From Paragemmobacter kunshanensis (lineage in GTDB: Bacteria; Pseudomonadota; Alphaproteobacteria; Rhodobacterales; Rhodobacteraceae): a DNA stretch of 64,000 nucleotides. The notes under the pieces were generated by a model. That model had not been told where the DNA came from, did not search any database, and was given only the letters and a program-made list of their open reading frames with translations. Positions 12,706 to 28,114 of this stretch are shown here, one piece after another (within the stretch, counting starts at the first letter, position 1; the number at the start of each line of letters is the position of its first letter). Location of the stretch: NCBI RefSeq assembly GCF_011059185.1, contig NZ_JAALFE010000004.1, positions 1-64,000 of the forward strand, written 5' to 3'. Made by a program: the position numbers and the translations under genes.

Positions 12706-12760
12706 TCCCCCTGCGGCCCCTGTTCCCGGGGGCCGCAACCCACCCTTGCGGAGCATCAGG

Positions 12761-13912: not shown

Positions 13913-13925
13913 CAGGATCAGGCAG

Positions 13926-14582: not shown

Positions 14583-15307
14583 TGCGCATCCATGTGATCA
14601 ACCCCAATTCCACCGCCGCCATGACCCGCACCATCGCCGATGCGGCGCGGGCAGCCGCCAGCCCCGGCACCGATATCGACGCCGAAACCGGCATGGGCAC
14701 CCCCCCCTCAATCGAAGGCTACCGGGATGAGGCGATGGCCGTTCCCGCCCTGCTCGCCGCCATCCTGCGGGCCGAGGCACGCGGCGCCGATGCCCATGTC
14801 ATCGCCTGTTTCGATGATCCCGGTCTTGCCGCCGCGCGCGAGGTGGCCACAGGCCCCGTCATCGGCATCTGTCAGGCGGCCCTGCAGGTTGCCATGACGA
14901 TTTCCACCAGATTCTCGGTGATCACCACGCTGCCCCGCTCCGTTCCCGTGATCGAGGATCTGGTCGCAGCCTATGGCGCGGCCCATCGCTGCCGCAGGGT
15001 GCGCGCGGTGGACATGCCTGTTCTGGCGCTTGAGGCCGATCCGGCATCGGCCCGGGCGCGGCTCTTCGACGAAACCCGCCTCGCCATGGACGAGGACAGG
15101 GCCGAGGCGATCGTTCTGGGCTGCGCGGGCATGACCGATCTCTGCGATTGGCTGTCGCAGACGGCGGGCATTCCCGTCATTGATGGCGTCACCGCCGCCA
15201 CCCGCCTTGCCGAGGCGCTGGCAGGCGCCGGCTACCGCACGTCAAAGGCCGGGGCCTATGCCTATCCGCGAGATAAATCCGCCGACATGATCGCAGGCGC
15301 GGCATGA
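14582..15307 (+). CDS. Asp/Glu/hydantoin racemase family protein
   Basis: A 241-residue protein of the aspartate/glutamate/hydantoin racemase family, which inverts a stereocentre using two opposed cysteines. The N-terminus reads MRIHVINPNST, the signature of hydantoin-racemase-like members. Candidate catalytic cysteines are in VIACFDDPGL (about residue 78) and VLGCAGMTD (about 180). It is coupled to both neighbours by overlapping stop/start codons. Together with two amidohydrolases this points to degradation of a chiral cyclic amide such as a hydantoin derivative, which is an inference. Confidence 0.87.
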   Translation: MRIHVINPNSTAAMTRTIADAARAAASPGTDIDAETGMGTPPSIEGYRDEAMAVPALLAAILRAEARGADAHVIACFDDPGLAAAREVATGPVIGICQAALQVAMTISTRFSVITTLPRSVPVIEDLVAAYGAAHRCRRVRAVDMPVLALEADPASARARLFDETRLAMDEDRAEAIVLGCAGMTDLCDWLSQTAGIPVIDGVTAATRLAEALAGAGYRTSKAGAYAYPRDKSADMIAGAA

Positions 15308-16773
15308 CGGGCCTCGATGCGCTGACCCTCGGCCAGCGGCCCTCCGGCCGGACGGCACTGGCGGCCCGCTGGATCATCGGCCATCTGAACGGCCGCCACA
15401 AACTGTTCGAACAGGCCGAGATCGTCATCGAAGCCGATCGCGTGATCCATGTCGGCCCCGCCTTTCCCGGCCCTGTCGCACGCAGGATTGATCTGGGCGA
15501 CGTGCTGGTTTCCCCCGGTTTCATCGATCTCGATGCGCTCTCGGATCTGGATACGACCCTGCTCACCGTGGATAACGGCCCAGGCTGGGCCACGGGGCGT
15601 GTCTGGCCGCAATCCTATGTCGATCGCGGCCCGTACGAGATGTATACGCCGGAAGAACTGGCCTTCCAGAAACACTACGCCTTTGCCCAACTCCTGCGCC
15701 AGGGCATCACCTCCGCCCTGCCCATCGCCTCGCTCTTCTACCGGGAATGGGGCGAAACCACCGCCGAATTCGAAACCGCCGCCCAGGCAGCCGCCGATCT
15801 TGGCCTGCGGGTCTGGCTTGGCCCGGCCTATCGGTCGGGCGGCATGGTCTGCACGGCTCCGGGCGTTCTCGAACCCCGCTTCGACGAGGCACGCGGCCTG
15901 AAGGGACTCGACGATGCCATTGTCTTCGCCAGCCGTCACGGCGGCAGTTACGGCGGGCTGGTTCAGGCCATGCTGTCGCCCGACCGGGTGGAAACCTGCA
16001 CCCTGGCCTTGCTGGAACGCACCATGGCCGCGTCCCGCGACATGGCCCTTCCGGTGCGCCTGCACATGGCACAGGGCCGGATGGAACGGCGCACCGTGCA
16101 GGCCCTGCACGGAACCACCGCCCCGCAATGGCTCGCCCGGCATGGTCTGCTGCACGACAGGCTGATCGCCCCCCATGCCGTCGAGGCGGAACCACAGGAT
16201 CTGGCCCTCTATGCCCGTCACGGTGTCACCATCGCGCATTGCCCGCTGGTCTATGCGCGCGATGGTGAAATGCTGAAATCGTTCCGGCGCTGCCGTGACC
16301 TCGGCATCAATATCGGCATGGGCACCGATACCGCCCCCGCCGACATGGTGCTGAACATGGCCGTCGCCCTGATGATGGGCCGCGCCGCCGAAGGCGATGA
16401 TCGGGGCCTGACCACGGCCGAGGTCTTCGATGCCGCAACGATGGGCGGGGCCAATGCGCTGCATCGGCCCGATCTCGGCCGCCTGCAGCCGGGATCGAAG
16501 GCGGATATCGCGATCTTCGACATGGCCGACAGCTATTTCGCACCCCGGATCGACCCCGTGCAAAGCCTGATCTTCGGCGCAACCGGCCGGGTGACCAAAG
16601 CCGTCTTCGTGGATGGTCGCCTGTCCATGCGCGATGGCCAGGTCGCCGGGATGGACATGGCCGCCGCCCGCAGCCAGGCCCAGGCCCAGTTCGACAGGCT
16701 GCTGCAGCGCTACCCGGAACGCAGCTGGGGTCATCCCGATCTGGCCGCGATGTTCCCGCCCACCTATCCCTGA
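15304..16773 (+). CDS. Amidohydrolase (TrzN/chlorohydrolase-like) with altered metal motif
   Basis: A 489-residue protein of the amidohydrolase superfamily, closest in layout to the chlorohydrolase/TrzN/guanine-deaminase group. The N-terminal HxH metal motif expected after PGFID is replaced by DLDALSDLD. The later ligands look intact: RLHMAQG, PHAVEAE, IAHCPLVYAR and GMGTDTAPADM. The C-terminal composite sandwich strand GSKADIAIFDM is normal. The gene overlaps the racemase gene by 4 bp and ends the operon. Loss of HxH may mean a mononuclear site bound by the remaining residues or an altered reaction, so function is uncertain. Confidence 0.82.
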   Translation: MTGLDALTLGQRPSGRTALAARWIIGHLNGRHKLFEQAEIVIEADRVIHVGPAFPGPVARRIDLGDVLVSPGFIDLDALSDLDTTLLTVDNGPGWATGRVWPQSYVDRGPYEMYTPEELAFQKHYAFAQLLRQGITSALPIASLFYREWGETTAEFETAAQAAADLGLRVWLGPAYRSGGMVCTAPGVLEPRFDEARGLKGLDDAIVFASRHGGSYGGLVQAMLSPDRVETCTLALLERTMAASRDMALPVRLHMAQGRMERRTVQALHGTTAPQWLARHGLLHDRLIAPHAVEAEPQDLALYARHGVTIAHCPLVYARDGEMLKSFRRCRDLGINIGMGTDTAPADMVLNMAVALMMGRAAEGDDRGLTTAEVFDAATMGGANALHRPDLGRLQPGSKADIAIFDMADSYFAPRIDPVQSLIFGATGRVTKAVFVDGRLSMRDGQVAGMDMAAARSQAQAQFDRLLQRYPERSWGHPDLAAMFPPTYP

Positions 16774-16806: not shown

Positions 16807-18708
16807 TCAGCCGCGCCCAACAGTCCTGTCCAGGCCAAACGCCCTTTCCAGCGTCTCCGCCATCCCTGACGCGTGTTCCTCACCGTCCCGGGATGGCGCG
16901 GACACACCCCCGCCCTCTTCCGGCGCTGACCAGACGGCCAGCACAACGCGCAGGGCCGGAAACCGCCGCCGCAACTGGCGCAATCTCACCGCGACAGCCG
17001 CGCCCGCCTCCCGGTCAAGCGATGTCAGGACGATCACCTCGGCCCCGAAGGCTTGCACCGCTTCGGCCTGAACCGCCCGCCAGGACAGCACCCGCGTCTC
17101 GGCCCCCTCTGCCCGCATCACCTGCGCCAGCATCCCCGCCACCGCCTCGTCCAGCACCGTGCGCGCGCCGGTCACCACCACCCTCCGGCCCGCACCCGGC
17201 AAGGGGCTGTCGCCGTCCAGCCCGGCGGCCTCTTCGATCACGGCGTCCAGCCGCTCGACCTGGTCCAGCACGGCATCCGCCATCCGGTTGGCCTGCGCAT
17301 CGGACAAGAGCCCCGTCTCCTGATCGGCCTGCGCCATGGCCAGCGCCGGAATCGCCTTGCGATCATAGAACTCGGCAATCTCGCGCGACATGCGGGCCTC
17401 CCCCGCCGCCAGGACCGAAGCCTCGTCCAGCGCGAAGGAATGCCCGGTCAACAGCCGATCATAAAGCCGCGCCGTTTCCTCCAGAACCGGGTTGTCGCCC
17501 AGCAGGATCGAAAAGACCCGCAGACTGGGCACATGATGGCCGATCACCACCAGGCAGACGGTCAGCGGCGTGGCGATGATCAACCCCATCGGCCCCCAAA
17601 GCCAGGTCCAGAACATGGCCGAAACGATCACCGCCAGCGGGCTCAGCCCGGTCCGGCGGCCATAGAAACGCGGCTCCACGACATTCGACGTGATCAGTTC
17701 CACCCCCGCGAACAGCGCCACCGTCCACAGCACAAGCGACCAGTCCGGCGCCACCGCAAAGGCCATCACCAATGGCAGCACCACCGAAATCGCAGTGCCG
17801 ATATAGGGAACGAAGCGCAGGATCAGCGTCACGATCCCGAAAAACAGCGCGTTCGGCACACCGATCAGCCAAAGTCCCAGCCAGATCGGCACCGCATAGA
17901 CGACATTCACCACCAGCTGCGCGACCAGATAGCTGGACACCCGCGATCCGGCCTCGCCCAGCAGGCGCGAGGTGGCAAGGATGTTGCTGCCGCCGATCAG
18001 GATGACCAGACGGTCGCGCAGGGCCGCCCGCTCCAGCAGCGCAAAGACGACAACCACCGCAATCAACCCCGAAATCGCCACCGGCTCCAGCGCAGGAAGG
18101 ATGACCCCGGTCAGCCAATCCGACAGGCTGGTCGTCTCGATCAGTTCCACACGCACCGGCCCGGCATCCTGCGCGCCCTGTCCCCCCTCCGCCGCGGCAA
18201 GCCGGTCGCTGATGTCGGCCACCATGGCCTGCAGTTGCGCAACCATCCGGCTCTCCTTTCCCATCTCGAGAAAGGCATCCAGCTTCGACAGGACATTCCC
18301 CTGATAAAGCGGCAGGTTCGCCCCGATCAGGCTCAGCTGATAGGCGAAGGCCAGCACAAAGCCCCCGACAAGCGCCGCCGTGGCCAGCACGGTCAGGACG
18401 ACGGCCCAGCGCTCCGTCAGGCCGCGTCGGCGCAGGGCATTGACCAGCGGTGTCAGGACAAAGGCACAGAGCATCCCCAGCGCCAGCGGCAGGAACAGAT
18501 CCCGCGCCAGATAAAGGATCGCACAGACCACCGTGATCACCGCCAGAGTGGTCAGGGAAACGACCGACTGCCGCGCCTTGGCAGGACGCGCGCCCTCCTC
18601 TGCACCGCTGCCATCCCGGACAGCGCGCCGTTCCCCGCCCGATCCGGCACCAGACCTGTCGCCCGATACCGGCACCATCGGTGCCTGCTCTTGCCCTGTC
18701 ACCATCAT
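16807..18708 (-). CDS. AI-2E family transporter (PerM/TqsA-like) with C-terminal extension
   Basis: A 633-residue membrane protein. After a basic, low-complexity N-terminus (about 1-45) it shows eight or so hydrophobic segments in the arrangement of AI-2E/PerM exporters, including the motif LRFVPYIGTAISVVLPLVMA and the block PRFYGRRTGLSPLAVIVSAMFW. About 200 residues follow the membrane domain as a cytoplasmic extension, ending in an alpha/beta region (RRVVVTGARTVLDEAVAGML, VIVLTSLDREAGAAVAVRL). The promoter carries an exact EcfG-type motif at 18756-18780, so it is predicted to be induced by the general stress response. The transported substrate is unknown. Confidence 0.85.
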   Translation of the reverse strand: MMVTGQEQAPMVPVSGDRSGAGSGGERRAVRDGSGAEEGARPAKARQSVVSLTTLAVITVVCAILYLARDLFLPLALGMLCAFVLTPLVNALRRRGLTERWAVVLTVLATAALVGGFVLAFAYQLSLIGANLPLYQGNVLSKLDAFLEMGKESRMVAQLQAMVADISDRLAAAEGGQGAQDAGPVRVELIETTSLSDWLTGVILPALEPVAISGLIAVVVVFALLERAALRDRLVILIGGSNILATSRLLGEAGSRVSSYLVAQLVVNVVYAVPIWLGLWLIGVPNALFFGIVTLILRFVPYIGTAISVVLPLVMAFAVAPDWSLVLWTVALFAGVELITSNVVEPRFYGRRTGLSPLAVIVSAMFWTWLWGPMGLIIATPLTVCLVVIGHHVPSLRVFSILLGDNPVLEETARLYDRLLTGHSFALDEASVLAAGEARMSREIAEFYDRKAIPALAMAQADQETGLLSDAQANRMADAVLDQVERLDAVIEEAAGLDGDSPLPGAGRRVVVTGARTVLDEAVAGMLAQVMRAEGAETRVLSWRAVQAEAVQAFGAEVIVLTSLDREAGAAVAVRLRQLRRRFPALRVVLAVWSAPEEGGGVSAPSRDGEEHASGMAETLERAFGLDRTVGRG

Positions 18709-18755
18709 CCCCGCCCCCTCGCCGCCGTGTCCCGGACCTGCGCCACTCGGAAAAC

Positions 18756-18780
18756 AACGGCCGTCACCCGATCACGTTCC
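18756..18780 (-). promoter_or_regulatory. EcfG-type promoter of the AI-2E transporter gene
   Basis: On the minus strand the sequence GGAAC (18780-18776), a 16-bp spacer and CGTT (18759-18756) match the alphaproteobacterial EcfG consensus exactly. The predicted start point is about 40 bp upstream of the ATG at 18708. Confidence 0.72.
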
Positions 18781-18820
18781 CGATACCCGGGACGATTTTT
18801 CCCGCACCTGCCGCCGGGCC

Positions 18821-18845
18821 GGAACCTGACGCCGCCTCGCGCGTT
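18821..18845 (+). promoter_or_regulatory. EcfG-type promoter of the gene at 18886
   Basis: GGAAC at 18821-18825, a 16-bp spacer and CGTT at 18842-18845. It lies back to back with the EcfG-type promoter at 18756-18780 on the other strand, so both divergent genes appear to belong to the stress regulon. The predicted start point is about 34 bp from the ATG. Confidence 0.72.
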
Positions 18846-18885
18846 GCCCTCGCAATGCCTGTCCGGCCCGAAGATGGAGAACGCC

Positions 18886-19365
18886 ATGTCAGCCCCTTCC
18901 CGTCGTCCCGTGATCCTCGTGAACGATGCCGCCCTCCTCTCGCCTCAGGTCCGCGCACTGGATGCGGACAGTTGCACGGTCATCGTGGCCGGCAGCCGGG
19001 TCGTGGGCATGACCCTGGCCGAACTTGCCCTTCCCGGCGCGCAGATGATCTGGACGGACTTCCGGCAGAGCCGCGCGCTCGGCCATCTGCATCAGGAAAT
19101 CGACGCGAATGGCGGCCTCGATCACCTGATCCTTGCCGCCGACGGATCACAGGCGGAAACGGTCTTCTCGGTGATGTGCGCCATCCTCTGCCTGTTGCCC
19201 GCCCTGCGTCGGCCAGGCAAGGCGAGGATCTCGCTCGATCTCGACGATGGTCCCGCCGTCGCCGGCCTGAAGGAGTTTCTCTCCCGTCTCGCCCCGCGTC
19301 TCAACCGGCAGAACATCAGCCTTTGCCTGAACATCCGCCAGACCATCGCCGCGGGCGCGCCCTGA
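18886..19365 (+). CDS. Hypothetical protein, Rossmann/SDR-like, stress-regulated
   Basis: A 159-residue soluble protein of unknown function. Alternating hydrophobic strands and helices (RPVILVNDAALLS, SCTVIVAGSRVVGM, LDHLILAADGS, RISLDLDDG) suggest an alpha/beta Rossmann-like fold. The LDHLILAADG segment is reminiscent of short-chain dehydrogenases, but the glycine-rich cofactor loop and the YxxxK pair are absent, so catalysis by an SDR mechanism is unlikely. The start has GGAG upstream. An exact EcfG-type promoter precedes it, which places it in the general stress response. No closer assignment can be made. Confidence 0.7.
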   Translation: MSAPSRRPVILVNDAALLSPQVRALDADSCTVIVAGSRVVGMTLAELALPGAQMIWTDFRQSRALGHLHQEIDANGGLDHLILAADGSQAETVFSVMCAILCLLPALRRPGKARISLDLDDGPAVAGLKEFLSRLAPRLNRQNISLCLNIRQTIAAGAP

Positions 19366-19402
19366 CTGGCGCCCGAGCGCGCCCCACGGAAAGCCCCGCC
19401 CC

Positions 19403-19431
19403 GGCCCGGATTGCATCACCGCATCCGGGCC
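19403..19431 (+). terminator. Terminator after the gene at 18886
   Basis: A 9-bp perfect stem (GGCCCGGAT with ATCCGGGCC) with an 11-base loop, followed by CTTTCGCTT. It is 38 bp past the stop codon. Confidence 0.5.
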
Positions 19432-19464
19432 TTTCGCTTGCTGCCCGGCGCAAGGACCGGCCAG

Positions 19465-19493
19465 AAAAAAGGCTGCGACCGAAATCGCAGCCT
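19465..19493 (-). terminator. Rho-independent terminator on the minus strand
   Basis: A 9-bp perfect stem (AGGCTGCGA with TCGCAGCCT) with six A residues on its left, which read as a T-tract on the minus strand. It serves the DUF1328 gene. Confidence 0.6.
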
Positions 19494-19516
19494 GAGTTCA
19501 GAGGGAACGACGAAAT

Positions 19517-19544
19517 CCCGCAGGGCCGGGGATGGCCCTGCGGG
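19517..19544 (-). terminator. Hairpin directly downstream of the DUF1328 gene
   Basis: An 11-bp perfect stem (CCCGCAGGGCC with GGCCCTGCGGG) and a 6-base loop, 13 bp after the DUF1328 stop. It lacks a strong T-tract and may stabilise the 3' end or act together with the terminator at 19465. Confidence 0.45.
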
Positions 19545-19557
19545 CAGGGCAGACAGA

Positions 19558-19722
19558 TCAGCCGCGCCGCATGAGGCGGCCGATCAGGGACAGCACGAAA
19601 AGCACCAGGAAGATGAAGAACAGGATCTGCGCGATACCGGCCGAGGTGCCGGCAATACCGCCAAAGCCGAGAACGCCCGCGATCAGCGCGATGATGAGGA
19701 AAGTGACAGCCCAACCAAGCAT
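19558..19722 (-). CDS. DUF1328 small membrane protein
   Basis: A 54-residue hydrophobic protein with two membrane segments ([22 protein letters not shown] and [21 protein letters not shown]) and a basic tail. The sequence and length match the DUF1328/YtjA family. The internal ATG at 19722 is chosen because AAGGAG lies 7 bp upstream. The longer 61-residue frame would start upstream of that site. An EcfG-type promoter lies about 65 bp upstream, consistent with the stress induction reported for relatives. The molecular function is unknown. Confidence 0.85.
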
Positions 19723-19785
19723 GGCAATGCTCCTTTTTTTCATGTCCCGGGCGCCACCTTGCGCCCTGTTGAGATCTGCCAGACC

Positions 19786-19811
19786 AACGCGCGACCATGC
19801 GGAACGGTTCC
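19786..19811 (-). promoter_or_regulatory. EcfG-type promoter of the DUF1328 gene
   Basis: On the minus strand GGAAC (19811-19807), a 17-bp spacer and CGTT (19789-19786). It is oriented toward the DUF1328 gene. Confidence 0.7.
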
Positions 19812-19839
19812 CCCGGATCCCGGAAAAACCGCCCGCCCG

Positions 19840-21522
19840 TCAGATCCCGCCGCGCGGAAAGACCAGTTCCACCACCGACCGCGCGCCGTCGGTCCGCGTC
19901 GAGACGCGCCCCCGCAACTGGGCAGCAAAGCGCGCCAGCATCCGCTTTGGCAGGGCCGCCATGCCTGTCGTGGTGTCAGCCAGGAACTCCGGCACGGCCG
20001 GGCCTTCTATCGACAGCCGGATGTCCTGCCCCTCTTCGGTCAGCGCCACCTCGATCCCGCGATCCATGCCCGCCCTTGCCGCGAAAAGGCACCCCACGGC
20101 CTCGGCCACCGCCAGGGCCAGGGGCACCGCCGCCTCGGGGGTCAGCCGGATCGGATCCAGCCTGTAGCGCGCCGATCCGATCGCGATGCCGTGGATCTCC
20201 TTCAATCGCCGCACCACCCCGCCCAGCACCTCATCCATCGGCACATCGCGGCGGCCGTCCAATCCGTAAAGGCTGGTATGGGTCGAGGACAGCGCGATGA
20301 CGCGATAGATCAGCCCGTCCAGCACCCCCCGCAGGGCCGGATCGCCTGCCTCGCGCCGATACATCCGCATGACCGAAGCGATGATCTGCAGGCTGTTGCC
20401 GCTGCGATGGTGAACCTCGCGCAGCAGCCGTTCCCTGTCCACCAGCAGGTTCTGCAACTCTGCTTCGTCCTGCTCCAGATCGCGGATCAGCTTTTCATAG
20501 ACGGCATGCAGCTTCTGGATCTCTGTCGGGGCCTCGGCGATATCCGGAATCGCCACCCGCGCGCGCGCCTCGCTATAGGCCATCATCGCGCGTGACAGCG
20601 CCCGCACATGCCGCACCACCAGCCGCCCCGAGGCCAGCGCCGCCGCGATCAGCGCCGCCGCCCAGGTCAGCGCCGGCAGCAGATAGGGCGCCATGGCACT
20701 GGCCGCCCAGGAACTTGCCTCGCCCTGTTCCCAGATGGCCAGCAGAAACAGGTCTTCGGCGACATTCACCACCGACACGATCCGCTCCGAACCGTCCGCC
20801 CCTTCGACAAAGGCCGGACGCCCGGCAAGCCGGGCCGCCCCGTCCAGGCCCATGCCGGGGGGCAGCAATGCCAGGGCGTCGCGCGCCTCATCCGACCGGG
20901 CCAGTTCCGTGCCATCCGCCGTAAAGGCGACGATCACACCCGGCTCCCACTCGACATAGTCGGCCGTATAGGGGCTGGGCGTCACCGCCTGATTGGGGAT
21001 CGACACCGAAACCACCCCCGTCTGTCGGCCGCTTCCGTCCACCACCGGATGCACCGCCCCGATCACCGCCCCCCCCGAAACCGGGCCGCGCGGATTGAAA
21101 ACGAGCATCGGTTCCGGGCGTGCCATCATCCGCTCAAAGGCGGCATTCCCGGAAAAGTCGAACGGCTCCCCGGTCGAGGCACAGGTCATCCGGCCCGACA
21201 TCGGGATATAGGCGACAAGCGATGCTTCGGGGATGCCCTCGGCTACCGCCCGCATCCGCGCCATGCATTCCGCATCCTCCGGAATGCCCGGCGACAGGCT
21301 CTGTGCCAGAACCTTCGCCGTGGTCTGGCTGGCGCGGATCAGGTCGATCTGGGGCTGCACGGCCGCCAGCGACGCGCCACCGATGCCTTCCAGCGTCGAT
21401 TGGTGGAACTGTTCGCGCGTCACCTGCGTCTGAACAACCGAAAGCACGCCAAGCGGCAACAACGCCAGCACAAGCGTCGACCCAAGCCGAAAGCCCAGGG
21501 TGCTGGTCGCCAGAAACTTCAT
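19840..21522 (-). CDS. HisKA_2-type sensor histidine kinase-like protein, possibly catalytically degenerate
   Basis: A 560-residue membrane sensor. Two membrane segments (about 14-32 and 278-298) flank a periplasmic sensory region, followed by a HAMP-like linker and a HisKA_2 dimerisation segment with the phosphoacceptor candidate His371/His372 (LLREVHHRSGNSLQII). The ATPase domain is unusual. Where an N-box Asn is expected (E-x-x-x-N) the sequence is AEAVGC, and the DxGxG and GxG boxes read IEGPAVP and TGMAALP. It may therefore be a pseudokinase or a phosphotransfer/phosphatase partner. It lies 31 bp downstream of ecfG in the same operon, so a role in PhyR signalling is likely. Confidence 0.8.
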   Translation of the reverse strand: MKFLATSTLGFRLGSTLVLALLPLGVLSVVQTQVTREQFHQSTLEGIGGASLAAVQPQIDLIRASQTTAKVLAQSLSPGIPEDAECMARMRAVAEGIPEASLVAYIPMSGRMTCASTGEPFDFSGNAAFERMMARPEPMLVFNPRGPVSGGAVIGAVHPVVDGSGRQTGVVSVSIPNQAVTPSPYTADYVEWEPGVIVAFTADGTELARSDEARDALALLPPGMGLDGAARLAGRPAFVEGADGSERIVSVVNVAEDLFLLAIWEQGEASSWAASAMAPYLLPALTWAAALIAAALASGRLVVRHVRALSRAMMAYSEARARVAIPDIAEAPTEIQKLHAVYEKLIRDLEQDEAELQNLLVDRERLLREVHHRSGNSLQIIASVMRMYRREAGDPALRGVLDGLIYRVIALSSTHTSLYGLDGRRDVPMDEVLGGVVRRLKEIHGIAIGSARYRLDPIRLTPEAAVPLALAVAEAVGCLFAARAGMDRGIEVALTEEGQDIRLSIEGPAVPEFLADTTTGMAALPKRMLARFAAQLRGRVSTRTDGARSVVELVFPRGGI

Positions 21523-21553
21523 GCCCGCCCTGTCCTCACAGGATGTCCGGTCG

Positions 21554-22141
21554 TCAACAGGCCGCCGTCGCGCCGCGCAGCACAACCGCCTGCGTCGCAC
21601 CATCCGTGCCCGAGAACATGTCCTCGCCCTCGGCCAGATGCAGCAACTCCGCCAGTCGCCTGCGCGCCCGGCTGGCCCGGCTCTTCACCGTGCCGACGGC
21701 CACGCCCATCATCTCGGCGGCCTCCTCGCAGGAAAATCCGGAAGCACCGACCAGGATCAGCACCTCGCGATGCTCGGGGCTCAGCTGATCGAAGGCGCGC
21801 TGGAAATCGCCAAAGGCCAGCCGCCCGTCATGCGCGGGCCGCTCCGACAGCGTCGCCGCAAAGGCCCCGTCACTGTCCTGCACCTCGCGCCGGGTCTTGC
21901 GCAGCGCGGAATAAAAGGCATTGCGCAGGATGGTGAACAGCCAGGCGTCGAGGTTTGTCGCCGGATCGAACTTGTCGATATTGGACCAGGCCTTCAGGAT
22001 CGTCTCCTGCACCAGATCGTCGGCCTTGGACACATCGCGCGTCAGGCTGATCGCAAAGGCCCGCAGGCGGGGGATCGCCCCGGCCAGCCGGTCGCGCGGG
22101 TCGGCACTGCCCGCCTCGGCCAGAACCGATGCGGCGGTCAT
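21554..22141 (-). CDS. ecfG: RNA polymerase sigma factor EcfG
   Basis: A 195-residue ECF sigma factor of the EcfG group that directs the alphaproteobacterial general stress response. Region 2 is seen in KADDLVQETILKAWSNIDKF and NLDAWLFTILRNAFYS. Region 4 is LSPEHREVLILVGASGFSCEEAAEMM followed by VGTVKSRASRARRRL. A short non-conserved tail of about 25 residues follows. The start overlaps the nepR stop by 4 bp. NepR holds EcfG inactive until phosphorylated PhyR titrates NepR. The operon has an EcfG-type promoter, implying positive autoregulation. Confidence 0.93.
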   Translation of the reverse strand: MTAASVLAEAGSADPRDRLAGAIPRLRAFAISLTRDVSKADDLVQETILKAWSNIDKFDPATNLDAWLFTILRNAFYSALRKTRREVQDSDGAFAATLSERPAHDGRLAFGDFQRAFDQLSPEHREVLILVGASGFSCEEAAEMMGVAVGTVKSRASRARRRLAELLHLAEGEDMFSGTDGATQAVVLRGATAAC

Positions 22142-22317
22142 GATGTCCCACCCTTGCCCGTGCCGCCCTCCGCAGCCTTCAGTTGCGCCAGCAACTCGCG
22201 GAACCGGTCGGGCAATTCCTCGTTCAGGGCGGCTGAATAGACCCGCTTCAGATTCTCGTCGATCTGCGCGCGCATCGCCTGGCGCCGCGGCGTCTCTTCA
22301 TCCCGATCGCTCGACAT
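22138..22317 (-). CDS. nepR: Anti-sigma factor NepR
   Basis: A 59-residue NepR protein. The core helix-helix motif IDENLKRVYSAALNEELPDRFRELLAQLK matches the family consensus, with variable charged ends. It binds EcfG in unstressed cells and switches to the sigma-like domain of phosphorylated PhyR under stress. The ATG at 22317 is the only sensible start for a normal-length NepR, although its ribosome binding site is weak. It overlaps ecfG by 4 bp and is divergent from phyR. Confidence 0.92.
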   Translation of the reverse strand: MSSDRDEETPRRQAMRAQIDENLKRVYSAALNEELPDRFRELLAQLKAAEGGTGKGGTS

Positions 22318-22344
22318 TTTTTCTGCATTCCCGGTTTCATTCAC

Positions 22345-22376
22345 GGAACCAAACGTCCTCCGCCGCGTTTGGTTCC
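22345..22376. promoter_or_regulatory. Bidirectional EcfG-type promoter (nepR-ecfG and phyR) on one palindrome
   Basis: The arms GGAACCAAACG (22345-22355) and CGTTTGGTTCC (22366-22376) form a perfect inverted repeat around a 10-bp centre. Each strand therefore carries GGAAC, exactly 16 bp, then CGTT. The -35 of one promoter overlaps the start region of the other. Plus-strand transcription leads to phyR (ATG 22408) and minus-strand transcription to nepR (ATG 22317). Confidence 0.8.
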
Positions 22377-22407
22377 CGCAAGACCGAAAATTTTTGGAGC
22401 TTTCTTC

Positions 22408-23217
22408 ATGATCGCACAGGACGCGAACGATCTTTCGGCCCGGGTCGCCCGGCACCTGCCCTACCTGCGCCGTTACGCCCGTGCCCTGACCGGGAACCAG
22501 ACCAGCGGCGACAACTATGCCATCGCGGTTCTCGAGGCCGTGATCACCGATCCCGGGCTGGTTGCCGACCATCCCGATACCAGGATCGCCCTCTTCGCCG
22601 TGTTCCATTCCATCTGGGCCAGTTCCGGCGCCCCCGTGGCCGAGGCCGAGGGTGGCAGCTCCTCGCGTGCCCAGGCGCATCTCGCGGCCCTCACGCACAA
22701 TTCGCGCGAAGCGCTGCTTCTGAACTCCATCGAAGGATTTACGCCGGACCAGGTCGCCACGATCATGGGCACCGACCGCGCCGAGGTGGATCACCTGATC
22801 GACATGGCCCTGCGCGAGATGGAATCCTCCGTCCATGGCGCGGTTCTGGTGATCGAGGATGAAGCGATCATCGCGATGGACATCGCGGATATCGTCGAAG
22901 GCATGGGCCACCGCGTCACCGGCAATGCCCGCACCCATGCCGAAGCCGTCCGACTGGCCGCCGAGGATCGCCCTGATCTGATCCTGGCCGATATCCAACT
23001 GGCCGACAATTCCTCCGGCATCGACGCGGTGAAGGAGATCCTCTCCCAGTTCGGCGAAGTTCCCGTGATCTTCATCACCGCCTTCCCCGAGCGGCTGCTG
23101 ACGGGCGAACGCCCGGAACCGGCCTTCCTGATCAACAAACCCTATACCGAAGAGCAGGTGCGTTCCGCCGTGAGTCAGGCGATGTTCTTCTCCTCGAAGA
23201 AAAAGATTCCGGCCTGA
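22408..23217 (+). CDS. phyR: Response regulator / anti-anti-sigma factor PhyR
   Basis: A 269-residue PhyR. An N-terminal sigma-like domain mimics EcfG (regions resembling sigma 2 at about 10-70 and sigma 4 at about 90-138: LTHNSREALLLNSIEGFTPD). It is followed by a receiver domain with Asp195 (ILADIQLAD) as phosphoacceptor, Thr224 and Lys244 (LINKPY). On phosphorylation the sigma-like domain is exposed and binds NepR, freeing EcfG. The start has GGAG upstream. It is divergent from nepR-ecfG and shares a palindromic EcfG-type promoter with it. Confidence 0.95.
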   Translation: MIAQDANDLSARVARHLPYLRRYARALTGNQTSGDNYAIAVLEAVITDPGLVADHPDTRIALFAVFHSIWASSGAPVAEAEGGSSSRAQAHLAALTHNSREALLLNSIEGFTPDQVATIMGTDRAEVDHLIDMALREMESSVHGAVLVIEDEAIIAMDIADIVEGMGHRVTGNARTHAEAVRLAAEDRPDLILADIQLADNSSGIDAVKEILSQFGEVPVIFITAFPERLLTGERPEPAFLINKPYTEEQVRSAVSQAMFFSSKKKIPA

Positions 23218-23238
23218 TCCGGAAACCTGCAGGCGGCC

Positions 23239-24936
23239 CTACCGGCGCCGCCTGCGCCTTTCTTCGGGCCGTGCCGCCACCTTCGGAACCAGGTCCGGAT
23301 TCATCGCGAACCGGATCCGGATATGCAGGCCATCGGCGCTGAAGTCCCGGCTGATCGTTCCCGACAGTTCCCCCTTCAGGCTGGCCTCGATCAGTCGCGA
23401 TCCGAACCCACCACCCGCAATGGCCGTCGCCGCCGGGGCCGGGGCCGGGGCCTCCGACGGGCCGGGAAACCGCTCGACCCAGTCCAGCGCGACGACAGGC
23501 GCAGCGCCCGCCGTCTCGGGCGGATCAAGCTGCCAGTTCACCCGCAGCCGCCCGCCCTCTCCTGAAAGCCCGCCATATTTCATCGCATTCGTCACCAGTT
23601 CATGCGCCACCATGGCAAAGGCATGGGCCTGACGCTCGTCCAGAACCACGGGCGGTCCCGCCATCAGGTGATCGACGGCGGCCGTGTCCAGACATTGCTG
23701 CAACTCCTTCCGCAGGATTTCGCCCAGATCGGCCTGCGCCGACAGGGTGCCCGCCAGAATTTCCTGCACCGCCGCCATGGCCTGCAAACGGGAATCAAAG
23801 GCCGTCGTGAAGGCCTTCACATCGGAAGCCCCCCGCGCGCTTTGCCGGGCAATCGACTGGATGCGCGCGATGTGGTTCTTGATCCGGTGCTTCATCTCCT
23901 GCAGCAAGAGCCCCCGATATTCGGACTCGCGCTTCGCCGCCGCGGCAAGTTCGCGCGCCTGCCCCGCCTCTTCCTGCCGCGCGGAAATCGCCAGCGCCGC
24001 CGTGGCGGCAAACAGGATCGACACCAACCCCACCAGCAGACTGCCCAGATGCCTGTGCCAGGGCACCGTCCCCGTCTGCCAGAGGTCGAACCGCCAGGTC
24101 CGGCCCAGCACATCCACCCTTCGCGACAGATCCGGTCCCCCCTCCCCCACCACGGGATCCGCATGGATGGGCAGATCGGGCATCGCCTCATCCATGATCC
24201 TCATCCCCGGCTGCGTGCCATGCGCGCCCGACAGGGCGGCCCGGATCAGATCCCCCCCCCGGAACGGCGCATAGACAAAGCCCACCTGCGCCGACAGGCC
24301 CCCGCCCGCCCCGGCCGACCGCCCGCCATAGGCCAGATAGACAAGGAACCCCGTCTGCCGGTCGACCTCCGTTTCCTGCACCAGCATGACCGGGCCGCTC
24401 ATCTGCGGCTCACCCGTCGCCAGCGCGCGATCCATCGCCGCCCGGCGGACCGGCTCGACATACATGTCATAGCCAAGCGCGTTCATGTTGCGCGGGTTGT
24501 CCGGCTCCAGCAGCACGATCGGCACGCGCCAGGGCTGATCCGTCTCCGGCCTGATCTCGACATCGACGCCATATTGCGCGGCAATCTCGGCCCGCGCCCC
24601 GGCACCCTGATCCGGGGGAAAGGCCCGCGCGAACCCCACACCCTGCACCCCGGACAGATCCCCGACGATATCGACCGCCTCGATGAACCGCAGGAATTCG
24701 TCGCGGGCCACCTTGCCCCGTGACGCAGCAAAAAGCCCCTTGGCCGCCCTCAGGACGACCACATGCTGTTCCAGCCGTGACGTGATCAGGTCCACCGCCA
24801 GATCGGCAGACCGCTCGAACTCGGCCTCCAGCCGCCGCTCCTCGGCACTGTAGACGGCGAATGTCATCACTGCGCCCAGACCAAGGCCCGCCATCAGCGC
24901 CACCTGCGGCATGATGCGGACAAGAAGCGCCCTCAT
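23239..24936 (-). CDS. CHASE-domain HWE-family sensor histidine kinase
   Basis: A 565-residue membrane kinase. There is an N-terminal membrane segment (about 8-28), a periplasmic CHASE sensory domain (about 35-290, including AAKGLFAASRGKVARDEFLRF and VQGVGFARAFPP), a second membrane segment near residue 300 and a cytoplasmic HWE kinase core. The phosphoacceptor is in LQEMKHRIKNHIARIQSIARQ. The N-box HELVTNAMKYGG, the WxE motif (LDWVERF) and the G-box GGGFGSRLIEASL are intact. It lies beside phyR and ends 21 bp from its stop, so it is a candidate PhyR kinase. The start is uncertain: no strong ribosome binding site was found and upstream ATGs exist. Confidence 0.85.
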   Translation of the reverse strand: MRALLVRIMPQVALMAGLGLGAVMTFAVYSAEERRLEAEFERSADLAVDLITSRLEQHVVVLRAAKGLFAASRGKVARDEFLRFIEAVDIVGDLSGVQGVGFARAFPPDQGAGARAEIAAQYGVDVEIRPETDQPWRVPIVLLEPDNPRNMNALGYDMYVEPVRRAAMDRALATGEPQMSGPVMLVQETEVDRQTGFLVYLAYGGRSAGAGGGLSAQVGFVYAPFRGGDLIRAALSGAHGTQPGMRIMDEAMPDLPIHADPVVGEGGPDLSRRVDVLGRTWRFDLWQTGTVPWHRHLGSLLVGLVSILFAATAALAISARQEEAGQARELAAAAKRESEYRGLLLQEMKHRIKNHIARIQSIARQSARGASDVKAFTTAFDSRLQAMAAVQEILAGTLSAQADLGEILRKELQQCLDTAAVDHLMAGPPVVLDERQAHAFAMVAHELVTNAMKYGGLSGEGGRLRVNWQLDPPETAGAAPVVALDWVERFPGPSEAPAPAPAATAIAGGGFGSRLIEASLKGELSGTISRDFSADGLHIRIRFAMNPDLVPKVAARPEERRRRRR

Positions 24937-25154
24937 GCCGCCACCACGCCGCGATCTTGCCCCGTCCCCCGGCATTCGCTGCCTGGCCTGTCTGACCTCA
25001 CTGGCGTAATTCCTGCCTCCATCGGGCGGTTCTTGTGGCTGCGACAACACCGCAGGCAATGGGACAGCACAGGATGATGTTTCAGCCAAGGCGATGGGCA
25101 GGTCAATGCACTTGCAGACGGCCCGCCGCCAGCCTGCGCAAAGCCGCCACAGAA

Positions 25155-25188
25155 CGGAAAGGGGCCGCACCCTTCCGGGTGCGGCCCC
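25155..25188 (-). terminator. Rho-independent terminator after the secreted protein gene
   Basis: A 12-bp perfect stem (GGGGCCGCACCC with GGGTGCGGCCCC, 25161-25188) and a TTCC loop. On the minus strand it is followed by TTTCCG. It separates the gene at 25231 from the kinase gene downstream. Confidence 0.7.
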
Positions 25189-25230
25189 ACCGTCATCGCC
25201 CGTATCCTTACGGACGGTCCGCCGCCTTCA

Positions 25231-25719
25231 TCACTTCAGACGCGTCACCACGCCATCGGCGAAGGTGTCGATCAGCTTGCGATAGGCTTCATCCGTATCC
25301 GTCGTGCTCAGCATCAGCATTTCACCTTCCGCCAGCACGATCTGCGCATTCTCGACCGAAATGCCCAGCTCATAGGCGTCATAGTTGCCGTTGTCGGTCT
25401 CGTCATTGATGTTGACCTGGCCCACCAGCACGGCATCGCCCAGATTCAGGCCGCGCTCAAAGGCATTGGCCAGCTCGACCTCGCGGATGTCGACAAGGAT
25501 CTCGGCCCCGTCATCGCCCAGCCGCTCGGTCACGCGCGCGCCGATGGCGGCCTCGAGATCGGCCTCGATGCTGCCCCAGTATTTCGCCGCTTCCTCGTTC
25601 TGGATGGCCGAAAGGTCCACCGTCACATCGACCGTCTTGATCTGGTCAACCGCCGCAAAGGCGGTGCTGCCCATGGTGGTGGCAAGCAGGACGGCGGCAA
25701 GGGTCTTGGTGCGAAGCAT
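25231..25719 (-). CDS. Secreted hypothetical protein, stress-regulated
   Basis: A 162-residue protein with a clear signal peptide (MLRTKTLAAVLLATTMGSTAFA, cleavage after about residue 22). The mature part is acidic and mixed alpha/beta, with no cysteines and no recognised catalytic motif. A repeated pattern of strand-turn residues (VDVTVDLSAIQ, AEILVDIREVELA, GQVNINDETDNG) suggests a small beta-rich periplasmic domain. GGAG lies upstream of the ATG. An exact EcfG-type promoter precedes it and it is divergent from csbD, so it is predicted to be a periplasmic stress protein. I do not recognise the family with certainty. Confidence 0.72.
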   Translation of the reverse strand: MLRTKTLAAVLLATTMGSTAFAAVDQIKTVDVTVDLSAIQNEEAAKYWGSIEADLEAAIGARVTERLGDDGAEILVDIREVELANAFERGLNLGDAVLVGQVNINDETDNGNYDAYELGISVENAQIVLAEGEMLMLSTTDTDEAYRKLIDTFADGVVTRLK

Positions 25720-25766
25720 GTTGTATCTCCATTCCTGAAGGCCATGTCTGGCCGGTATGAGGAAAC

Positions 25767-25791
25767 AACGCCAACCCTGGCGCCCGGTTCC
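25767..25791 (-). promoter_or_regulatory. EcfG-type promoter of the secreted protein gene
   Basis: On the minus strand GGAAC (25791-25787), a 16-bp spacer and CGTT (25770-25767). The predicted start point is about 40 bp from the ATG at 25719. Confidence 0.72.
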
Positions 25792-25872
25792 CGCCAATCA
25801 GTCAGATTTCTTCCAATACATGCAATTTTTCTTTTTAATTCTGTTACTTGCACAGAAACTCGCAGAAATTTC

Positions 25873-25898
25873 GGAACCACTCTCCACCGCCGGGCGTT
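25873..25898 (+). promoter_or_regulatory. EcfG-type promoter of the csbD-like gene
   Basis: GGAAC at 25873-25877, a 17-bp spacer and CGTT at 25895-25898. The predicted start point near 25905 rules out the ATG at 25744 as the start of the CsbD-like protein. Confidence 0.7.
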
Positions 25899-25935
25899 GG
25901 CTTTCCATACCAACCCAAGGAAAAGGGAGACCACC

Positions 25936-26133
25936 ATTAACTGGGATCAGGTCGAAGGAAAATGGCTGCAACTCAAGGGTCAGGCCAAGGAAAAGTGGGG
26001 CCAGCTGACGGATGACGATCTGGATGTCGCCGCCGGCCGGCGCGACCAGCTGGCAGGCAAGATCCAGCACCGCTACGGCGTCGCCAAGGAAGAGGCAGAA
26101 CGCCAGCTGGATGACTGGTCGCGCAAGCTGTGA
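25936..26133 (+). CDS. CsbD family stress protein with apparent ATT start codon
   Basis: A 65-residue CsbD-like protein. The pattern NWDQVEGKWLQLKGQAKEKWG, then AAGRRDQLAGKIQHRYG and EEAERQLDDW, is the standard CsbD fold of two helices and matches the family length. The usual first residue Met before NWDQ is encoded here by ATT (25936-25938). A good ribosome binding site (AAAAGGGAG) lies 6-7 bp upstream. There is no ATG, GTG or TTG in frame between the predicted transcription start and this codon. ATT initiation or a recent start-codon mutation is therefore implied. It is predicted to be EcfG-dependent. Confidence 0.8.
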   Translation: MNWDQVEGKWLQLKGQAKEKWGQLTDDDLDVAAGRRDQLAGKIQHRYGVAKEEAERQLDDWSRKL

Positions 26134-26361
26134 CGCGGGCCCGCCGGCCCGACGGGCCAGCACAACAGGGGCCGTCGTGACGGCTCGCCAGACTGGGGGG
26201 CCGGGCACATGCCCGGCCCCCTTGTCCTTGCCCGGATCCACCGCCTTGCGGCCCACTGCCCCCCCTTCTGCAGTGCCACACGCCCCCCTTCGCGACACGC
26301 GGCGACAAGGCCGCGCGAAGAGGCCGCGCAAAGACGCCGGGGGGAAAATCCGCAAAGGAAC

Positions 26362-26386
26362 GGAACCGAAAGGCCCCCGCCGCGTT
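26362..26386 (+). promoter_or_regulatory. EcfG-type promoter of the PLDc_N gene
   Basis: GGAAC at 26362-26366, a 16-bp spacer and CGTT at 26383-26386, about 30 bp upstream of the ATG at 26417. It probably also serves the two following genes. Confidence 0.72.
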
Positions 26387-26416
26387 GACCCCCGAACCGT
26401 CCCAACGGAGCGTGCC

Positions 26417-26623
26417 ATGAACGAACTCTCGATGTTTTCCCTCTCCGGCCTCAGCGGCCTCGTGATCCTTGCCCTCGATCTCTGGGCGATCATCTCGGTG
26501 ATCAACTCCAATGCCTCGACCGGGGCAAAGGTCGGTTGGTCGCTCCTGATCATCGTGCTGCCGATCCTGGGCTTCCTGATCTGGCTGCTCGCCGGTCCGC
26601 GCAGCCGCCGCACCAGCCTGTAG
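26417..26623 (+). CDS. PLDc_N domain small membrane protein
   Basis: A 68-residue protein with two membrane segments (about 10-28 and 42-58). The arrangement LDLWAIISVINSNAS-KVGWSLLIIVLPILGFLIWLLAGPR matches the PLDc_N (phospholipase D N-terminal-like) family of small envelope proteins, in which no enzymatic domain is present. GGAG is upstream. It is the first gene of a short plus-strand operon under an EcfG-type promoter. The molecular role is unknown. Confidence 0.85.
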   Translation: MNELSMFSLSGLSGLVILALDLWAIISVINSNASTGAKVGWSLLIIVLPILGFLIWLLAGPRSRRTSL

Positions 26624-26632
26624 GACAGCCCG

Positions 26633-26971
26633 ATGTCCAGTCCCTCGCCCGGGCCCACCCTTTGGCAGCTGGCGCGCGTCGGCATCGCGGCTCAACAGTC
26701 GCTGCGCCTGCGCCTTGCCCTGATCCGCGTCGAAGCGCGGGACAGGGGCCGCCATGTGCGGCGCGGCCTCGCGCTGGCCATCCTCGGGCTCGTCCTTGCA
26801 TCGGCGGCGATCCTCATGGGCCTTGCCGCCCTCGCGATGCTGCTGATGTCCCACGGCTTCACCCCCCATGCTGCCCTCGGGCTCGTGGCGGGCGGGGCCA
26901 CGGCGCTGGCGCTGCTCCTGCTGCTGCTGGGTCGCAGCGCCCTTCTCCGCGCCACCTCATCCCGATCCTGA
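26633..26971 (+). CDS. Holin-superfamily III / YqjE-like membrane protein
   Basis: A 112-residue protein with a basic amphipathic N-terminus, then two strongly hydrophobic segments (about 42-68 and 76-98) and a short basic tail. The layout resembles YqjE/DUF1469 phage-holin-like proteins, which often lie next to YqjD/DUF883-type and PLDc_N stress proteins. It follows the PLDc_N gene by 9 bp and is likely co-transcribed with it. The family call is moderate because composition dominates the signal. Confidence 0.65.
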   Translation: MSSPSPGPTLWQLARVGIAAQQSLRLRLALIRVEARDRGRHVRRGLALAILGLVLASAAILMGLAALAMLLMSHGFTPHAALGLVAGGATALALLLLLLGRSALLRATSSRS

Positions 26972-27058
26972 CATCCGGTCCCGACAGGCCGGACAGGTCG
27001 GACAATCCGTCTTCCGTTACCCGCCGGGCCCAGGCCCGACGCCAGAAGGAGATTTGCC

Positions 27059-28114
27059 ATGTTCTTCCAATCCTCCACCCGCAACCTGAAATCCGCCATC
27101 ACCGCGCAGGATGCCGCCCTCGGCCAGTCGCTGACCGATCTCGCCCGTTCGCTCGGCCTCGACACTGCGGGCAGCATGGCCTCCCGGGCCGGGGTCAAGG
27201 CCGTGGGTCTTGCCCGCAACCATCCCCTGCCCGTGGCTCTGGCCGGTGCGGGCCTCGCCTGGCTCATCCTGCGCCCGCGCGGCTCCGGCCCGCAGCCCGG
27301 CATGGAGGCCCTCTCCCGCTGGGAAGACGAGGGCGGCCAGGTCCTCGACCCCGCCGATGTCATCGACAGGATGGACGCGACCGAGCGTGAATGGCTGAAT
27401 GCCGCCCGCGCCGCCCGCGATGCCGCCCGCGACCGGCTGCTCGATCTCTACGAACGCGGCGTCGCGACGGCCGAAGCCAAGGCTGCCGTTGCAACCGATC
27501 AGGCCGAAGCCCTCGCCCAGGCATTCCGCAAGAACCTTTCCCATCTGGAGGCCGAGGCCGCGGATCGCACCGCCGAAGCCCGCCGCCGCATCTGGGAGGC
27601 CCTCGAAACCGGCGGCAGGATGGCCGAGCGCGGCTTTGACCAGGGCAGGCAGATGGCCAAGGAACACCCGGTTGCAACCTCGGTTGCCGGCTTGGCCGTG
27701 GGGGCCGGGGCGCTCGCACTGGCCCTGCGTGGCCGGGGTCTGCTGAAGGTGATCGCCCCGGTCGCCCTGTCCGCCGTGCTGGCCGAGGCCGCCCTGCGCC
27801 TGCGCCGCAGCCCGGCCGAAAAGGCGGCGGATGCCGTGAAGGACACAGCCGAGGATATCGCCGAGACGGCCGCCTCCACCGCCCGCAAGGCCACCCGCGC
27901 TGCGCGCTCTGCCGCGAAGAAGGCCGATAGCGCCGTGACGGGGGCAACCCGCACGGCAAAGGCCGGCGCGAACCGCGCGGCCAAGGCGGCGGGCAAGGCC
28001 ACGCGTCCGTCGCGCACGGCCACGGGCAAGGCATCCGCCGTGGCGCGCAAGGCGCGCGACGCTGCGGCAGCCGCGGCCGGATCCGAAGTGCCGAATGGTG
28101 CCGCCAAGCACTGA
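27059..28114 (+). CDS. Membrane-associated protein with histone-H1-like basic tail
   Basis: A 351-residue protein. Two short hydrophobic stretches (about 60-75, PVALAGAGLAWLILRPR, and about 212-240) surround a helical, charged middle region. The last 90 or so residues are an Ala/Lys/Arg-rich low-complexity tail (repeats such as KATRAARSAAKKA and AKAAGKATRPS) like the C-terminus of histone H1 or bacterial AlgP-like proteins. This could bind DNA or polyanions. The N-terminal part resembles YqjD/DUF3618-type proteins. It is the third gene of the EcfG-controlled operon and ends at a strong terminator. The function is unknown. Confidence 0.7.
   Translation: MFFQSSTRNLKSAITAQDAALGQSLTDLARSLGLDTAGSMASRAGVKAVGLARNHPLPVALAGAGLAWLILRPRGSGPQPGMEALSRWEDEGGQVLDPADVIDRMDATEREWLNAARAARDAARDRLLDLYERGVATAEAKAAVATDQAEALAQAFRKNLSHLEAEAADRTAEARRRIWEALETGGRMAERGFDQGRQMAKEHPVATSVAGLAVGAGALALALRGRGLLKVIAPVALSAVLAEAALRLRRSPAEKAADAVKDTAEDIAETAASTARKATRAARSAAKKADSAVTGATRTAKAGANRAAKAAGKATRPSRTATGKASAVARKARDAAAAAAGSEVPNGAAKH

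Follow-up and report, generated by a model that had tools for sequence, protein, structure and literature searches.

Why do the regulators of a stress response lie beside so many of the genes that they may control? The question is raised by a 64,000-nucleotide stretch of the Paragemmobacter kunshanensis genome (contig NZ_JAALFE010000004.1, positions 1 to 64,000 of the forward strand, hereafter the window), which carries genes for PhyR, NepR, EcfG, two sensor kinases and several candidate targets. An initial annotation had placed regulators, kinases and targets together in about 11 kb, and this was borne out: the locus occupies about 11.3 kb (16807–28114), with its last unit, headed by a PLDc_N gene, probably reaching 28114. 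Judged from sequence comparisons, the locus is very probably a module of the general stress response, made up of PhyR, NepR and EcfG, to which the core of its own regulon is attached.

Exact EcfG-type sites in the window

Sites were defined by the exact consensus GGAAC, a spacer of 16 or 17 bp and CGTT, and not by a weight matrix. The window contains nine such sites, all within 18756–26386, against 0.56 ± 0.72 per 64-kb window expected by chance (100 dinucleotide shuffles; the highest shuffle had 3). Eight of them stand 30–63 nucleotides (nt) upstream of a start codon, measured from the -10 box. These are the eight promoters of the initial annotation, all of which were recovered with exact GGAAC and CGTT boxes, 16- or 17-bp spacers and the strands that it had assigned. 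On the minus strand, they precede the genes for an AI-2E family transporter (18756–18780, 47 nt), a DUF1328 protein (19786–19811, 63 nt) and an exported protein (25767–25791, 47 nt), as well as the nepR-ecfG-kinase unit (22352–22376, 34 nt from the nepR start). On the plus strand, they precede the gene that begins at 18886 (18821–18845, 40 nt), phyR (22345–22369, 38 nt), csbD (25873–25898, 37 nt) and the PLDc_N unit (26362–26386, 30 nt).

The ninth exact match (22200–22224, plus strand), absent from the earlier list, is antisense within nepR. It coincides with the codons for the NEELPDRF motif in nepR and was seen elsewhere only in the genomes G048 (loci L053/L104) and G322 (L319, at 7898–7922), so we rejected it as a promoter and left it out of the target promoters. 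A coding coincidence is the probable explanation in these genomes, with a second phyR promoter as the alternative.

A whole-genome scan of site density with an EcfG weight matrix had been proposed; the scan was run with the exact consensus in place of the matrix and found the island far denser than the rest of the genome. The genome (4.46 Mb in 117 contigs) has 57 exact sites versus 83 for a reversed-pattern control, so the consensus as such is not enriched genome-wide. Nine of the 57 fall within 7.63 kb and 48 elsewhere (Poisson P of about 4e-16, to be read as an order of magnitude only, the stretch having been picked after the cluster was seen). On the shuffles, the genome-wide counts and the Poisson test, a chance cluster was rejected.

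A codon-usage score gave values of 2.4 or less for the nine window sites and of 7.4 or more, i.e., coding, for 39 of the 48 sites outside. Seven of the nine outside sites that scored as non-coding were inspected in detail, while the two at L083 showed no gene, and three of the nine precede a plausible gene. We take the gene 34 nt from its site to encode an OsmB-like lipoprotein, the one at 27 nt an exported protein, and the one at 109 nt a superoxide dismutase. The three candidate sites are at C74:151543–151567 (upstream of the superoxide dismutase gene), C33:45465 and C55:8870. By this reading, 8 of the 11 plausible exact promoters of the genome are in the island. With 39 of 48 outside sites scored as coding and three well placed, the exact consensus was dropped as a genome-wide list of the regulon. 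In another species, EcfG -10 boxes are variable and many -35 boxes read GCAAC instead (PMC7083833; this and the other papers cited are drawn on through excerpts), so the true regulon beyond the island is probably larger.

Regulators and sensor kinases

The sigma factor gene (21554–22141, minus strand) encodes the domains Sigma70_r2 and Sigma70_r4_2. Its best NCBIfam match, NF009198, is above cut-off and is named just 'RNA polymerase sigma factor'; no model named EcfG occurs among the 25 of 86 NCBIfam models listed for the protein, and it is identified as EcfG by the sigma-family match together with its position between nepR and a kinase gene. The anti-sigma factor gene nepR (22138–22317, minus strand; PF18557) overlaps ecfG by 4 bp. 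Divergent from these is phyR (22408–23217, plus strand; PF22029, PF22233, and PF00072), whose product, the anti-anti-sigma response regulator, combines a sigma-like N-terminal part with a receiver and scores 359.8 bits against NF006623 (cut-off 240).

Of the two kinases, the first is of the HisKA_2/HWE type (19840–21522, minus strand) and scores 160 bits against the PhyK model NF051872, below its cut-off of 750. Its gene starts 31 bp past ecfG, and is probably the third gene of a nepR-ecfG-kinase operon; a homologue is present in 39 of 40 phyR loci of other genomes. The second is a CHASE-domain HWE histidine kinase (23239–24936, minus strand; PF03924 and PF07536), upstream of which no exact or one-mismatch EcfG-type site was found. 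Between them, the two kinases match PF07568/PF07536, and both carry the HRXXN motif (HRSGN and HRIKN, respectively) of kinases in the PhyR-NepR-EcfG pathway (PMC8103513). In the scheme that we propose, the two HRXXN-type membrane kinases would phosphorylate PhyR, phosphorylated PhyR would draw NepR off EcfG, and EcfG-RNA polymerase would then fire the eight exact promoters of the island.

Conservation of the sites near phyR

Is such a cluster peculiar to this genome? PhyR is clear in 66 of 149 genomes of the family (62 near full length) and in 8 of 19 genomes of the genus. A chosen subset of 40 phyR-centred stretches from other family genomes (38 are 20 kb long, the other two 11.2 and 16.7 kb) holds 184 exact sites in 0.788 Mb, or 234 per Mb, which is about 14 times the background of 16.1 per Mb (39 of the 40 genomes, with rounded sizes and the island included). 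The number of sites per stretch ranges from 0 to 9, with a median of 4.5, and the nine of this window equal the maximum. Because 39 of the 40 loci hold at least one exact site, clustering around phyR is a habit of the family, with this island at its upper end. The initial annotation was right that regulators and targets are densely clustered here, with the qualification that this is not special to this genome.

Homologues of the island genes near phyR were scored for an exact site on the same strand, in a range that reached from 350 nt ahead of the start codon to 30 nt into the gene. Such a site was found at 18 of 23 DUF1328, 12 of 15 csbD, 13 of 17 PLDc_N and 7 of 8 exported-protein homologues, and, among the regulators, at 27 of 38 nepR, 33 of 40 phyR and 25 of 40 ecfG homologues. 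The open reading frames (ORFs) downstream from the sites, called by a simple script, also fall into recurring families, namely PhyR/EcfG, DUF1328 (15 loci), CsbD (10), PLDc_N (9), the exported family (7) and AI-2E (4), to which we would add two that we presume to be DUF883-like (10 loci) and Dps-like (7 loci). A further 23 such ORFs were unclustered, and several of them are clearly spurious.

The presence of sites in 39 of 40 loci may itself be an inherited habit, and the clustering could in that case reflect an ordinary order of genes near a regulator and mean nothing for function. We consider this unlikely, as the genes next to the sites come repeatedly from a few families (DUF1328, CsbD, PLDc_N and, as we label them, the DUF883-like and Dps-like proteins), several of them accompanying phyR on plasmids. 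The frequency of targets far from phyR, which bears on the same point, was measured for csbD and DUF1328 within the genus.

Genomes with and without PhyR

A set of 28 genomes, 8 with PhyR and 20 without, provides a natural experiment, in which 14 genomes have copies of CsbD. The exact site precedes csbD in all eight copies of the PhyR-bearing genomes (29–122 nt upstream) and in none of the eight copies of the others (Fisher 1.6e-4), and the DUF1328 gene itself is present in seven of the eight PhyR-bearing genomes and in none of the 20 others (Fisher 6.8e-6), both values overstating independence because the genomes are related. All seven DUF1328 genes have an exact site 34–63 nt upstream. In four PhyR-less genomes of the genus (L125–L128), GGAAC-N16/17-CCTT is found 132–243 nt upstream of csbD; these CCTT-type sites are possibly the promoter of another sigma factor, the result of decay, or chance.

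The comparison also bears on whether the sites serve a different extracytoplasmic function (ECF) sigma factor, for example of the RpoE/ChrR type, their proximity to phyR-nepR-ecfG being incidental. An AAC core is common to ECF -35 boxes (PMC7083833), and in Rhodobacter sphaeroides PhyR moderately affects RpoE activity (PMC5830050). Since the csbD site and the DUF1328 gene track PhyR, as they would hardly be expected to do under another ECF factor, this explanation is disfavored, and we regard it as very improbable. That regulators, kinases and targets belong with EcfG, as the initial annotation had it, is supported from four sides: the protein families, the conserved sites, the contrast between PhyR-bearing and PhyR-less genomes, and site density.

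A palindromic promoter between phyR and nepR-ecfG

The promoters of phyR (plus strand) and nepR (minus strand) overlap except for seven bases at each end, forming a palindromic pair at 22345–22376, exact on both strands, with the sequence GGAACCAAACG TCCTCCGCCG CGTTTGGTTCC. Among 44 phyR loci of the family selected by protein match, 40, this one included, have an overlapping best pair at an offset of 6–8, which is exact on both strands in 26; when up to two mismatches per site are allowed, 43 of the 44 have an overlapping pair. The same routine found overlap at 1 of 21 phyR loci of other families in the class (L282). Five other loci of those families (L268, L269, L273, L278, and L280) have separate back-to-back sites at the nearly constant distance of 31–33 bp, a fixed arrangement of another kind, the phyR site departing from the consensus by one base in three of the five. 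In the remaining loci the sites are wider-spaced or none was recognized.

A palindrome scan of 84,980 species genomes, which is not a census, returned at least 118 stretches. Among the matches listed, phyR and a divergent nepR/ecfG flank the palindrome in 113; two are beside phyR and nepR-ecfG genes of the same orientation, one is at a contig end adjoining nepR alone, and two are elsewhere. These last two, with the same 32-bp palindrome, are in metagenome-assembled genomes labelled Rhizobiaceae and have no phyR within 400 bp (L221, 4699–4730; L222, 6792–6823). That of L221 is between divergent ORFs which we take to encode a transglutaminase-like and a ParB-like protein.

Many loci have a perfect inverted repeat of 11 bp around a centre that varies and measures 10–11 bp. 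A repressor or activator that binds as a dimer might have such an operator, and the element would then resemble two EcfG promoters without being such. The pattern of change makes this quite improbable: in the 40 overlapping pairs there are no mismatches in GGAAC and 16 in the -10 boxes, as in EcfG promoters elsewhere (PMC7083833). In L050, L052, and L059, 10-bp half-sites occur with the 16- and 17-bp spacers kept, though the search admitted those spacers alone, and EcfG promoters are in any case expected for both phyR and nepR-ecfG (PMC4814048).

As a pair of EcfG promoters, the element has a particular geometry. With the -35 box of either promoter directly next to the opposing -10 box, polymerase should occupy it in one direction at a time, and the palindrome would in this manner couple anti-anti-sigma output to the output of sigma and anti-sigma factor. 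Divergent control of phyR and nepR-ecfG by EcfG is known (PMC4814048). No description of an overlapping or palindromic phyR/nepR promoter was found in the literature searched, of which excerpts of PMC8103513, PMC4814048, PMC7083833, and PMC5830050 were examined for it; subscription literature was outside the scope, so novelty is unproven.

A separate history of the locus

Has the module shared the history of the genome that carries it? By RpoB (1141 amino acids), this genome (G000) is 94.4%–98.0% identical to eleven members of its genus and 95.2% to G322, a genome of another genus. In the regulators, it is closest to the latter: PhyR and EcfG are 79% and 83% identical to those of G322, and PhyR is 60%–63% identical to that of seven other loci of the genus, which form a clade of their own. 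In approximately unbiased (AU) tests comparing the regulators alone with one core gene, RpoB being taken from three of the seven PhyR-bearing genus members, a single clade for the genus was rejected on PhyR plus EcfG (p-AU 2.9e-76), and the grouping of this genome with G322 was rejected on RpoB (p-AU 0.016). G322 falls within the genus in the RpoB tree with moderate support, and is thus a near relative rather than a distant one. The regulator locus therefore groups with G322, away from its own genus, and has a history separate from that of the core. Also in G322, the DUF1328 (79% identical) and AI-2E (61%) proteins are encoded in one long stretch, and the divergent promoter pair of the AI-2E and 18886 type is repeated in L319 at 2452 (minus) and 2508 (plus).

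The conflict could also have arisen by vertical inheritance with old duplicates and loss, and no transfer. In favour of this reading, 11 of the 19 genomes of the genus, some of them incomplete, gave no PhyR, and G322 is close by RpoB and has its place inside the genus in that tree. On the other hand, both copies would have had to be long retained and then reciprocally lost, and in no genome of the genus were there two matches at E 1e-20; the plasmid location of the locus in several named relatives offers a route of transfer. Inheritance without transfer is on balance rather unlikely. In G151 and G149, the two genomes closest to this one by RpoB, no match to PhyR was found.

At E 1e-40, PhyR matches occur in 23 plasmid records, of which 15 are from Rhodobacterales, and plasmid-borne phyR is seen in Gemmobacter fulvus (p2), G. 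aquarius, Dinoroseobacter shibae (pDSHI02), SC52, and R. litoralis. On G. fulvus p2 (L366), genes for DUF1328, PLDc_N, holin, CsbD, kinase, EcfG, NepR, and PhyR adjoin a flavin reductase/racemase/amidohydrolase cluster. The catabolic cluster to the left of the island (7921–16773) resembles this one; its racemase is presumably such. Compared with the PhyR-less genome G164, the left flank is 82.7% identical in DNA over 8834–16773, and the similarity ends at the amidohydrolase stop codon (16773), which is 34 bp away from the stop codon of the AI-2E gene (16807). A clean empty site in G164 was considered and discarded, as the next bases there match nothing on this contig, so that no empty site is shown. 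The island does not deviate in base composition (G+C 0.64–0.71, like the flanks). On the 262,677-bp contig, one tRNA gene was found and a ParA-type Walker motif, sought with one regular expression, was not; no search was aimed at integrases or attachment repeats.

Candidate target genes of the island

Three of the candidates encode small proteins of named families. The DUF1328 small membrane protein (19558–19722, minus strand; PF07043) and the PLDc_N small membrane protein (26417–26623, plus strand; PF13396) both have conserved sites, and so has CsbD (25936–26133, plus strand; PF05532). The apparent start codon of csbD is ATT (25936–25938). At this place, 12 of 16 compared CsbD copies have ATGAA(C/T)TGG, and three others start with ATG followed by different residues; there is no in-frame ATG, GTG or TTG between the csbD promoter and the ATT, which is apparently a rare start codon, an assembly error or the mark of a silent gene. 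Behind PLDc_N, 9 bp past its stop codon, begins the gene of a Phage_holin_3_6 family membrane protein, a probable operon member (26633–26971, plus strand; PF07332). The probable last gene of the operon encodes 351 amino acids with no Pfam match (27059–28114, plus strand); on pSC52_2, the gene behind the holin gene is annotated DUF3618.

The exported protein of 162 amino acids (25231–25719, minus strand) has no Pfam or NCBIfam match and a predicted alpha-beta fold. Its structure model (predicted local distance difference test score, pLDDT, 78) gave weak matches to Cj1090c and PelC, then to DUF330 and LptE, with three matches at E of 0.001 or less and template-modelling (TM) scores of 0.34–0.56 for the top twenty.

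The AI-2E family transporter of 633 amino acids (16807–18708, minus strand; PF01594) is a probable target, and so is the 159-amino-acid protein encoded at 18886–19365 (plus strand), which has no Pfam or NCBIfam match and a predicted Rossmann fold, like that of short-chain dehydrogenases/reductases (SDR). Its model (pLDDT 82, from two sequences) has FabG and other SDR proteins, including BdcA, as the nearest folds, and the top ten TM scores against short-chain dehydrogenases are 0.52–0.71 on the query. The single relative of this protein among 198 family genomes searched (L288) retains the site, and the gene order there, AI-2E/orf/DUF1328/kinase/ecfG/nepR/phyR, has sites at equivalent places.

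Overall, the comparisons argue strongly for EcfG control of DUF1328, csbD, PLDc_N, phyR, and nepR and fairly well for that of the exported protein, and they hint weakly at control of the AI-2E and 18886 genes. The proposal that several poorly described proteins belong to the EcfG regulon is thus upheld for DUF1328, CsbD, and PLDc_N and, with less force, for the exported protein, while its extension to AI-2E and the 18886 gene is weak. Because most of the targets other than the regulators are small membrane or exported proteins, the set (DUF1328, PLDc_N, holin-like, AI-2E, and exported protein) suggests protection of the envelope.

Comparison with known systems

The PhyR-NepR-EcfG systems of Methylobacterium, Caulobacter, Sphingomonas, and Sphingopyxis have the same three regulators, HRXXN kinases and divergent phyR and nepR-ecfG, and they share EcfG autoregulation and a csbD target with the island (PMC4814048, PMC8103513, PMC7083833). 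For Sphingopyxis, a regulon of 79 transcriptional units is reported. What differs here is the large share of the recognizable exact promoters that lies beside the regulators, and the palindromic overlap of the regulators' own promoters.

Closer at hand, R. sphaeroides RSP_1271–1274 encode a kinase, a sigma factor, a NepR-like protein and a divergent PhyR in the same order as here; GGAAC is absent from the main text of that paper, and no list of EcfG targets was found in its excerpts (PMC5830050). The 153-kb replicon pDSHI02 of D. shibae also carries kinase, sigma factor, and NepR genes with a divergent phyR, together with DUF1328, PLDc_N, and Dps, and has seven exact sites within 22 kb, the regulator promoters overlapping at an offset of 8. 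Unlike the island, this locus is on a named extrachromosomal replicon and has another gene order, and no CsbD or AI-2E gene is annotated in the stretch seen, for which the gene table is incomplete. Genes for a kinase, a sigma factor and a hypothetical protein on this replicon rise together in light/dark versus dark starvation (PMC4373377); from the replicon and the gene order, and not from matched locus tags, these may be kinase-ecfG-nepR.

Bidirectional promoters of the housekeeping sigma factor, in which one DNA element is transcribed both ways, are another point of reference. The pair described here differs from them in that it is made of ECF promoters, its -35 boxes abut the opposing -10 boxes, and both directions serve one switch.

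Interpretation

Several observations weigh against reading the locus as a general stress module with its regulon attached. All counts rest on the exact consensus and come from related genomes that are not independent. Near phyR, none of 39 HisKA_2/HWE kinase homologues and none of 25 CHASE kinase homologues has an exact site of its own; the site is present at just 4 of 10 AI-2E homologues and is absent from the one holin homologue and the six homologues of the last gene. The 18886 gene has no homologue in the 40 phyR stretches and one relative overall. For the exported family, 24 of 30 loci were scored and 22 gave a match, with the site at 16 of 20 in PhyR-bearing and 0 of 2 in PhyR-less genomes, a difference that is not significant (P 0.065); one of the two PhyR-less loci has a one-mismatch site. 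At the palindrome, mutual exclusion is a prediction from geometry. As for physiology, the R. sphaeroides phyR mutant is impaired in membrane stress only, and not in oxidative, heat or osmotic stress (PMC5830050). Many genes of the D. shibae 153-kb replicon are downregulated in dark starvation, and four replicons of this bacterium, all but the 72-kb one, have no vital function under the conditions used (PMC4373377).

Because the mutant phenotype is so narrow, 'general' may be a misnomer for the response of this family, and the mostly membrane-associated targets of the island would fit, by analogy, a narrower role in membrane stress as in R. sphaeroides.

Significance

Of more interest than the clustering itself are two other facts, that the two-way promoter is conserved and that the module has had a history of its own. 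A further, tentative proposal is one to which we give somewhat less than an even chance: the Rhodobacterales switch may be built around a single two-way EcfG palindrome, whose choice of direction would set the ratio of PhyR to NepR-EcfG and hence the gain of the partner switch, and it may travel between lineages, often on plasmids, with a starter regulon. If so, a new host would receive the sigma factor, its control proteins, the sensors and matching target promoters together. For DUF1328, PLDc_N, the exported 162-amino-acid family and the 18886 protein, the locus offers a testable regulon, and the proportion of sigma, anti-sigma, and anti-anti-sigma factor would become a question of promoters and of a few base changes. 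Finally, the failure to find the module in 11 of 19 genomes of the genus, together with the regulators' own history, suggests that a global response may be gained or lost in one step.

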